Shown: positions 5,151 to 45,641 of the stretch, piece by piece
Layout: each line of letters begins with the position of its first letter
Position numbering within the stretch: the first letter of the stretch is position 1
Assembly: GCA_018398765.1 (NCBI GenBank)
Contig: JAHBMJ010000531.1
Location: forward strand, 1-45,803
Reading direction: 5' to 3'
Source: Chromera velia
Lineage: Eukaryota; Sar; Chromeraceae
DNA length: 45,803 nucleotides
Translations under genes and position numbers: made by a program
The notes under the pieces: generated by a model
Seen by the model: only the letters and a program-made list of their open reading frames with translations
Databases searched by the model: none
What the model was told of the DNA's origin: nothing

Positions 5151-5554
5151 ATGAATGTCTTTTTGTTATTGTTCGTGTTGGACATTTTTCTTCCAGTCTC
5201 ATCTGATGTTTCATTTTTTCTTTCGTTACGAGCACGGAGCTCACAACGACCACTGCGGGGGGCGACAACTTCTGTTTGTCCGAGGGAATGTGAATTTTTG
5301 GGAACTCTTTTGAAGGAGAAAGTACACTCTCAGTTGGGAATGACACCAGCACTATTGGAAGCAGAAAGCCCTGTGGGATTACAGAAGGCGGAGAGGTATT
5401 CGGACGAACTTGTTGTCCCCCACCCCGGGAACGTCTCCCCCTTCCTGCGCATTCCAGTGCGACGACTCGACTACGAGCTTTACAACCCGTTGCTCGACCA
5501 TTGCTATGAGTGCTTTAAGGAGTTTGCAGCAGCAATGTATTCTCCTATTGAGAG
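5151..5554 (+). other. exon 1: signal peptide plus transit-like presequence
   Basis: Residues 1-134. MNVFLLLFVLDIFLPVSS is a typical signal peptide core. The following 30 residues (for example SLRARSSQRPLRGATTS) contain Ser, Thr and Arg and almost no acidic residues, as in transit peptides behind a signal peptide in secondary plastids. The mature part then turns acidic. The exon ends at AGAG before GTCGGT; intron 1 is phase 2 and exon 2 completes the Arg codon. Confidence 0.75.

Positions 5555-45641: not shown

Follow-up and report, generated by a model that had tools for sequence, protein, structure and literature searches.

Ribosomal proteins are small and conserved in size, and the S2, S3, and S5 proteins of the Chlamydomonas chloroplast ribosome, reportedly unusually large according to the title of one paper, are several hundred residues long. 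The length given for rice plastid S1 is 402 amino acids (PMC8160077), and Escherichia coli bS1 is described as docking on uS2 at the mRNA exit through its N-terminal helix (Phe5 and Phe9) and OB1 (PMC10123108). S1 domains are also reported within larger chains, among them the PETs of Chlamydomonas, plastid polyproteins thought to yield PSRP-7 and EF-Ts (PMC12156993), and bacterial fusions of IspH to RPS1 (PMC4746011). Here we describe a locus of Chromera velia predicted to code for a plastid-type S1 unit near the visible end of a far longer chain. A reading made from the sequence alone had placed the protein far beyond the size of normal plastid S1, and this holds: it exceeds 4,933 residues, against the 402 reported for rice (PMC8160077). 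Among the matches listed in the open-access literature, we found no title describing a giant plastid S1.

A single long predicted gene

The window, meaning the whole stretch of 45,803 nucleotides that was analyzed, is one complete scaffold (C530) of a 177.8-Mb assembly of 4,040 contigs. Searches of the genome gave 58 light-harvesting matches and 11 alveolin matches, the latter with a model that also matches one bacterial control (Caulobacter), and psbA had no match in the assembly. The locus is most likely a nuclear gene of a photosynthetic alveolate.

The gene model comes from a Viterbi gene finder written for this analysis, which combines codon usage with splice-site weights, was seeded with seven evident exons, and was retrained on its own output. 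Training settled on one plus-strand gene with 71 exons. Under identical parameters, the finder gave a score of 2071 for the forward strand (a single gene coding for 4,870 aa), 27 for the reverse complement (longest gene, 344 aa), and 4 to 22 for five first-order Markov sequences (longest gene, 211 aa). We note that the finder was trained on the giant gene itself, which counts against the one-gene reading. When GC donors were allowed and introns were penalized only weakly, the parse drifted to 340 exons and was discarded.

Four hand edits separate the finder output from the final model. The gene start was moved from 5340 to 5151, a position set by hand because a parse forced to start there skipped the signal-peptide exon, whose composition score is low. 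Exon 31 was cut back to a donor at 23900, picked by eye, and a 40-base exon (24136-24175), found when the intron penalty was lowered, was inserted; the donor of exon 60 was shifted from 39814 to 39810; and a doubtful 20-base exon was dropped. The resulting model (5151-45641, plus strand) has 71 exons, 14,800 coding bases, 4,933 amino acids, and no in-frame stops (Table 1). Its introns are 211 to 646 bases long (median, 351), with GTNNGT at 58 of the 71 donors and TGCAG at 58 of the 70 acceptors. The exon count, the coordinates, and the length of more than 4,900 residues in the sequence-only reading were therefore right, since the finder recovers the gene while the controls stay at background. 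We regard the predicted giant gene as confirmed and well supported, its continuity as one gene resting on the splice signals.

The model contains no stop codon: the last exon closes with a donor 162 bases short of the scaffold end, and the protein must therefore be longer than 4,933 residues. The earlier description of a protein ending in the S1 module is right in placing S1 near the visible C-terminus, but the gene runs off the scaffold with no stop seen. When the scaffold end was compared with the other scaffolds, only the simple repeats of the terminal intron matched.

Table 1. Features of the predicted giant gene, by position in the window
Feature	Position	Strand	Description
Exon 1	5151..5554	+	Signal-peptide-like hydrophobic segment MNVFLLLFVLDIFLPVSS..., then basic transit-like stretch
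Exons 2-35	5863..25383	+	Unrecognized acidic extension, first part, residues 135-2345; single copy in genome
294-N run	25450..25743	.	Scaffold gap within intron 35
Exons 36-60	25968..39810	+	Unrecognized extension, second part, residues 2346-4278; no paralogue
Exon 61	40075..40434	+	End of extension; FSYRDF in last codons, possible uS2-anchor helix
Exon 62	40900..41102	+	Start of S1 domain 1
Exon 63	41450..42017	+	Remainder of S1 domain 1, S1 domain 2, most of S1 domain 3
Exon 64	42375..42431	+	End of S1 domain 3 and start of plastid-type tail (LERNPGEM)
Exon 65	42692..42934	+	Remaining plastid-type tail (LRNPQACFEAA) and start of C-terminal region
Exons 66-71	43404..45641	+	Acidic C-terminal region, open at scaffold end

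Several other features were observed in the window. Intron 18 holds a 54-base unit in 3.1 tandem copies that are 97% alike (14291-14457), and two introns contain copies of the exon end that precedes them, one of exon 19 (14783-14845) and one of exon 68 together with its donor (44469-44490), as if local duplication makes introns grow. A small gene on the minus strand (3585-4429), parsed by eye into three exons, lies head-to-head with the giant gene at a distance of about 670 to 720 bases; its product, 158 aa long, begins in the manner of a signal peptide and matched no Pfam or NCBIfam family above the cut-off.

The S1 module

Residues 4411-4700 form a complete, divergent S1 of the plastid/cyanobacterial type, with three S1 domains followed by an LE..PG[DE]M tail. 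The Pfam S1 model matches the giant protein at an E value of 9e-17. The best match in the PDB is the spinach chloroplast S1 (bS1c, 5x8p; E 3.2e-29, residues 4411-4696), ahead of bacterial S1, and the second-best solved match is a 436-aa "Ribosomal protein S1 homologue" (PDB 28jw, 28lu, and 9tvu). PRK07400 ranks first among the 11 listed NCBIfam models (E 2.8e-34, model positions 25-304 of 318), but its score of 118 bits does not reach the curated equivalog cut-off of 460 bits, a threshold passed by only one of 14 control genomes, and we therefore file the module as a divergent homologue and not as a PRK07400 equivalog. Sixteen of the 80 cyanobacterial S1 rows were compared with the module, and identity to these is 27 to 29% (119 to 130 bits, with the whole core aligned); identity to spinach S1 is 32%. 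The three S1/OB domains are colinear with those of cyanobacterial S1, and the plastid tail is present as LERNPGEMLRNP, with E in place of the D of LE..PGDM; the pattern L[EQ]..P[GA][DE]M is found in 68 of the 80 cyanobacterial rows. The spinach S1, PRK07400, and cyanobacterial alignments bear out the earlier assignment of three S1 domains with a plastid-type tail.

The same alignments bear on splicing within the module. The spinach S1 alignment is gap-free across junctions 63/64 and 64/65, and those splices are therefore supported. Junction 62/63 lies inside the match to the first spinach domain, with an insertion of 8 residues in the giant protein nearby.

A search for any other plastid S1 gene, named as a check by the sequence-only reading, was run exon by exon over the genome with four queries (Pfam S1, the S1 of the giant protein, spinach S1, and PRK07400), and no second plastid-type S1 was found. 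Because the search works exon by exon and Pfam S1 detects one of the three domains of the giant, a fragmented second gene could escape it. The Pfam model has 11 genome matches: six on contig C4039 and one each on C2209, C2291, C200, C3320, and the giant gene. With the spinach S1 and PRK07400 queries, C4039 is the only stronger match than the giant gene, and weaker matches fall on some of the other S1 scaffolds; the S1 of the giant as query returns C4039 and a chance-level match on C2605. The C4039 locus (106.7-108.3 kb) reads as an rpsA without introns, 581 aa long and bearing six S1 domains, to which the giant's S1 module is 23% identical (47 bits); the contig is probably a bacterial contaminant left over in the algal assembly. 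Four other loci were rejected as plastid S1 candidates: C2209 resembles eIF2-alpha by eye, C2291 is of the Rrp5 type by Pfam, C200 has a single S1 domain, and C3320 (70030-71883, minus strand) has two S1 domains without the plastid layout. The C3320 frame is open, measures 618 aa, and sits at the edge of its contig; a Pfam scan of 400 of its residues showed S1 and no further family.

The divergence of the module (27 to 32% identity and 118 bits against the curated 460) would suit a protein that derives from plastid S1 and now serves the plastid in another role, such as RNA processing or nucleoid organization, rather than as a component of the 30S subunit. We think this quite unlikely, as the module retains its three domains and the tail, and the four queries found no other plastid-type S1 in the genome.

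Upstream of the first S1 domain, a Phe-x4-Phe motif is present in all 80 cyanobacterial rows, 13 residues ahead of it in the ten rows shown. The giant protein has FSYRDF at residue 4391, in exon 61, which was noticed post hoc and stands 20 residues ahead of OB1, not 13. The pattern F[ST]..[DE]F occurs twice in the 4,933 residues, with 0.012 occurrences expected per 30-residue window, and it arises in 0.24% of local-window shuffles; the cyanobacterial profile and phmmer alignments both begin at OB1, with FSYRDF outside them. It resembles the cyanobacterial F....F motif and is a possible uS2-anchor helix. If the match is real, exon 61 is part of the S1 unit and the extension begins at its docking end.

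One gene or several

The one-gene parse is the finder optimum. We also forced two-gene parses at 176 split points over 6-44.6 kb, with the gene-start penalty set at 10: the median loss was 27.5 log units, and the best of these parses lose 9.5 to 12. A forced break inside the S1 domains, which is false by homology, loses just 10.0 log units, about the penalty set for a gene start, and the finder alone therefore does not settle whether there are one or two genes.

The most concrete division into two or more adjacent genes has a first gene stopping at the TGA at 36802, followed by a smaller one that carries S1, codes for about 1,180 residues, and starts near 36833 or 37646. With the first gene closed after exon 56 and the second begun at 37646, the parse loses just 11.7 log units, exon 57 scores weakly, and the gap of 840 bases is near the median intergenic distance of 989 bases reported for Chromera (PMC4501334). 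There is, moreover, a hydrophobic read from an ATG at 36833 that joins exon 57 in phase, a possible instance of the start between exons 56 and 62, with a presequence of its own, that the sequence-only reading had named as counting against it. That read, however, is translated from a (CT)n repeat and is one of 12 with at least 24 residues before a donor among the 37 listed in a scan of ATG reads over 5.0-42.4 kb, a set that includes the gene's own start at 5097. The TGA itself falls within a perfect GTGAGT donor, and the ATG at 37646 adjoins an ATGCAG acceptor, a form common to 16 of the 70 acceptors; a protein beginning there would lack a strong hydrophobic start (best 19-mer, 0.93). Close gene pairs in Chromera are also reported to favor the head-to-head arrangement (PMC4501334). 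Separate genes are, on this evidence, an unlikely account of the locus.

A break of another kind could lie at the 294 Ns between exons 35 and 36, where scaffolding connects residues 1-2345 to residues 2346-4933. Were the scaffold a fusion of two unrelated pieces at that point, residues 1-2345 would belong to another gene. We consider this highly improbable: phase is kept from exon 35 to exon 36, and the gap is flanked by C runs on either side, as expected where reads fail within an intron. Even a misjoin would leave the S1 part with some 2,050 upstream residues, as these lie together on one gap-free stretch.

The N-terminus and the acidic extension

The start of the single predicted chain was judged by a hydropathy scan, as the signal-peptide score of the ATG-read scan misses the gene's own start, where an Asp interrupts the window. 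Among all 19-mers of the 4,933-residue chain, residues 3-21 score highest for hydrophobicity (1.98, against 1.29 for the next elsewhere), and no other segment is strongly hydrophobic. A signal-peptide-like start had been proposed before, and its location at the top hydrophobic window of the whole protein agrees with this. A second in-frame ATG lies at 5097, 18 codons upstream of 5151. In our best reading the giant protein is plastid targeted through a putative signal peptide and transit peptide.

Residues 1-4398 are acidic (net charge, -289; pI 4.8) and have no Pfam family above the cut-off in scans that jointly cover the whole chain, residues 1362-1530 included. Pfam matches below the cut-off in this part (best, pPIWI_RE_Z at 0.0016 and TPR_12 at 0.0037) and PDB matches (best E, 1.5) were taken as chance. 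No second genomic copy of the N-terminal part was found, the best matches elsewhere (E 0.33 on C2073 and 0.59 on C851) also being taken as chance, and one scan of viral contigs found no relative of the exon 56 protein. No internal repeats rise above control: the best window pair has an E value of 0.0019, against 0.001, 0.003, and 0.011 in three shuffled sequences. Of nine pieces analyzed for amphipathic periodicity, eight weakly favor helix (z from 0.3 to 3.3) and one does not (-1.4); FoldIndex scores 42% of all residues as folded, and part of the chain may be disordered. The long, unrecognized acidic extension of the sequence-only reading is accordingly there to be seen, at about 4,400 residues and pI 4.8, with no Pfam family above the cut-off and no credible match in the PDB, and it is best read as a lineage-specific part of about 500 kDa, N-terminal to a plastid S1.

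The main rival to an intact giant is cleavage to an S1 of normal size. The imported chain would then be a precursor, cut into an S1 of about 300 to 350 residues and at least one further, unrecognized plastid protein. The PETs offer a precedent for a plastid polyprotein with S1 domains (PMC12156993), and the S1 unit is compact and basic (pI 9.4) between acidic flanks (pI 4.8 upstream and 4.3 downstream). On the other side, no second protein is recognizable in the 4,398 residues, and the search for repeats gave nothing beyond the shuffled sequences. The sequence-only interpretation is borne out in part; a chain that would release several known plastid proteins is not supported, S1 being the sole Pfam family above the cut-off. 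We rate cleavage to a normal-sized S1 as rather unlikely.

A proposed giant plastid S1

We slightly favor the interpretation that one nuclear gene of Chromera velia codes for a protein that is sent to the plastid and exceeds 4,933 residues, which bears a plastid bS1 near its visible C-terminus and docks on the ribosome, with the extension acting as a scaffold or tether. A signal peptide and transit peptide would bring the giant chain into the plastid, where the candidate anchor helix and first OB domain would dock on the uS2 protein of the 30S subunit, at its mRNA exit, and the remaining OB domains would hold mRNA. The acidic N-terminal part, about 500 kDa, would project from the docking end and serve, we would guess, as a lineage-specific scaffold or tether. 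This is the best explanation we have, and in it docking and mRNA binding are carried over from bacterial bS1, whereas the scaffold role is a guess.

A stronger form of this interpretation is possible though doubtful: that S1 stays whole in the mature plastid ribosome, at over 550 kDa, with an acidic arm that extends from the mRNA exit as a translation scaffold peculiar to the lineage. Such a protein could outweigh all other small-subunit proteins combined. Should it exist in uncleaved form, it would far exceed in size every other ribosomal protein known to us, and a plastid ribosome would be able to bear an arm of half a megadalton near the mRNA exit; if cleaved, the chain would represent a plastid polyprotein of a new kind. 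A real protein of this size would also prompt the question, in chromerids and in the apicoplast of the parasites related to them, of whether the extension is shared, whether a shorter form is present, or whether S1 is missing.

Comparison with known systems

The closest likeness is to plastid and cyanobacterial bS1 (spinach bS1c and PRK07400), with which the giant shares the order of the three S1/OB domains over the core, the tail, and possibly the F....F helix. Those proteins stand alone at about 300 to 400 residues, whereas the module here sits in an open chain of 4,933 residues, with about 4,390 extra residues upstream and at least 230 downstream. Like the PETs and PSRP-7 (Chlamydomonas, and OsAL7 of rice at 1,123 aa), it is a predicted nucleus-encoded plastid protein with S1 domains in a larger chain, as those proteins are described (PMC12156993); it differs in its bS1-type S1 unit, in a length more than four times greater, and in the absence of an EF-Ts domain from Pfam scans that jointly cover the chain. 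The bacterial IspH-RPS1 fusions likewise join S1 to another protein in one chain, but the partner reported there is a known enzyme (PMC4746011), and the partner of the giant is unrecognized and far larger. As a predicted plastid ribosomal protein of unusual size, the giant resembles the Chlamydomonas S2, S3, and S5 proteins, with the extension in Chromera running to thousands of residues.
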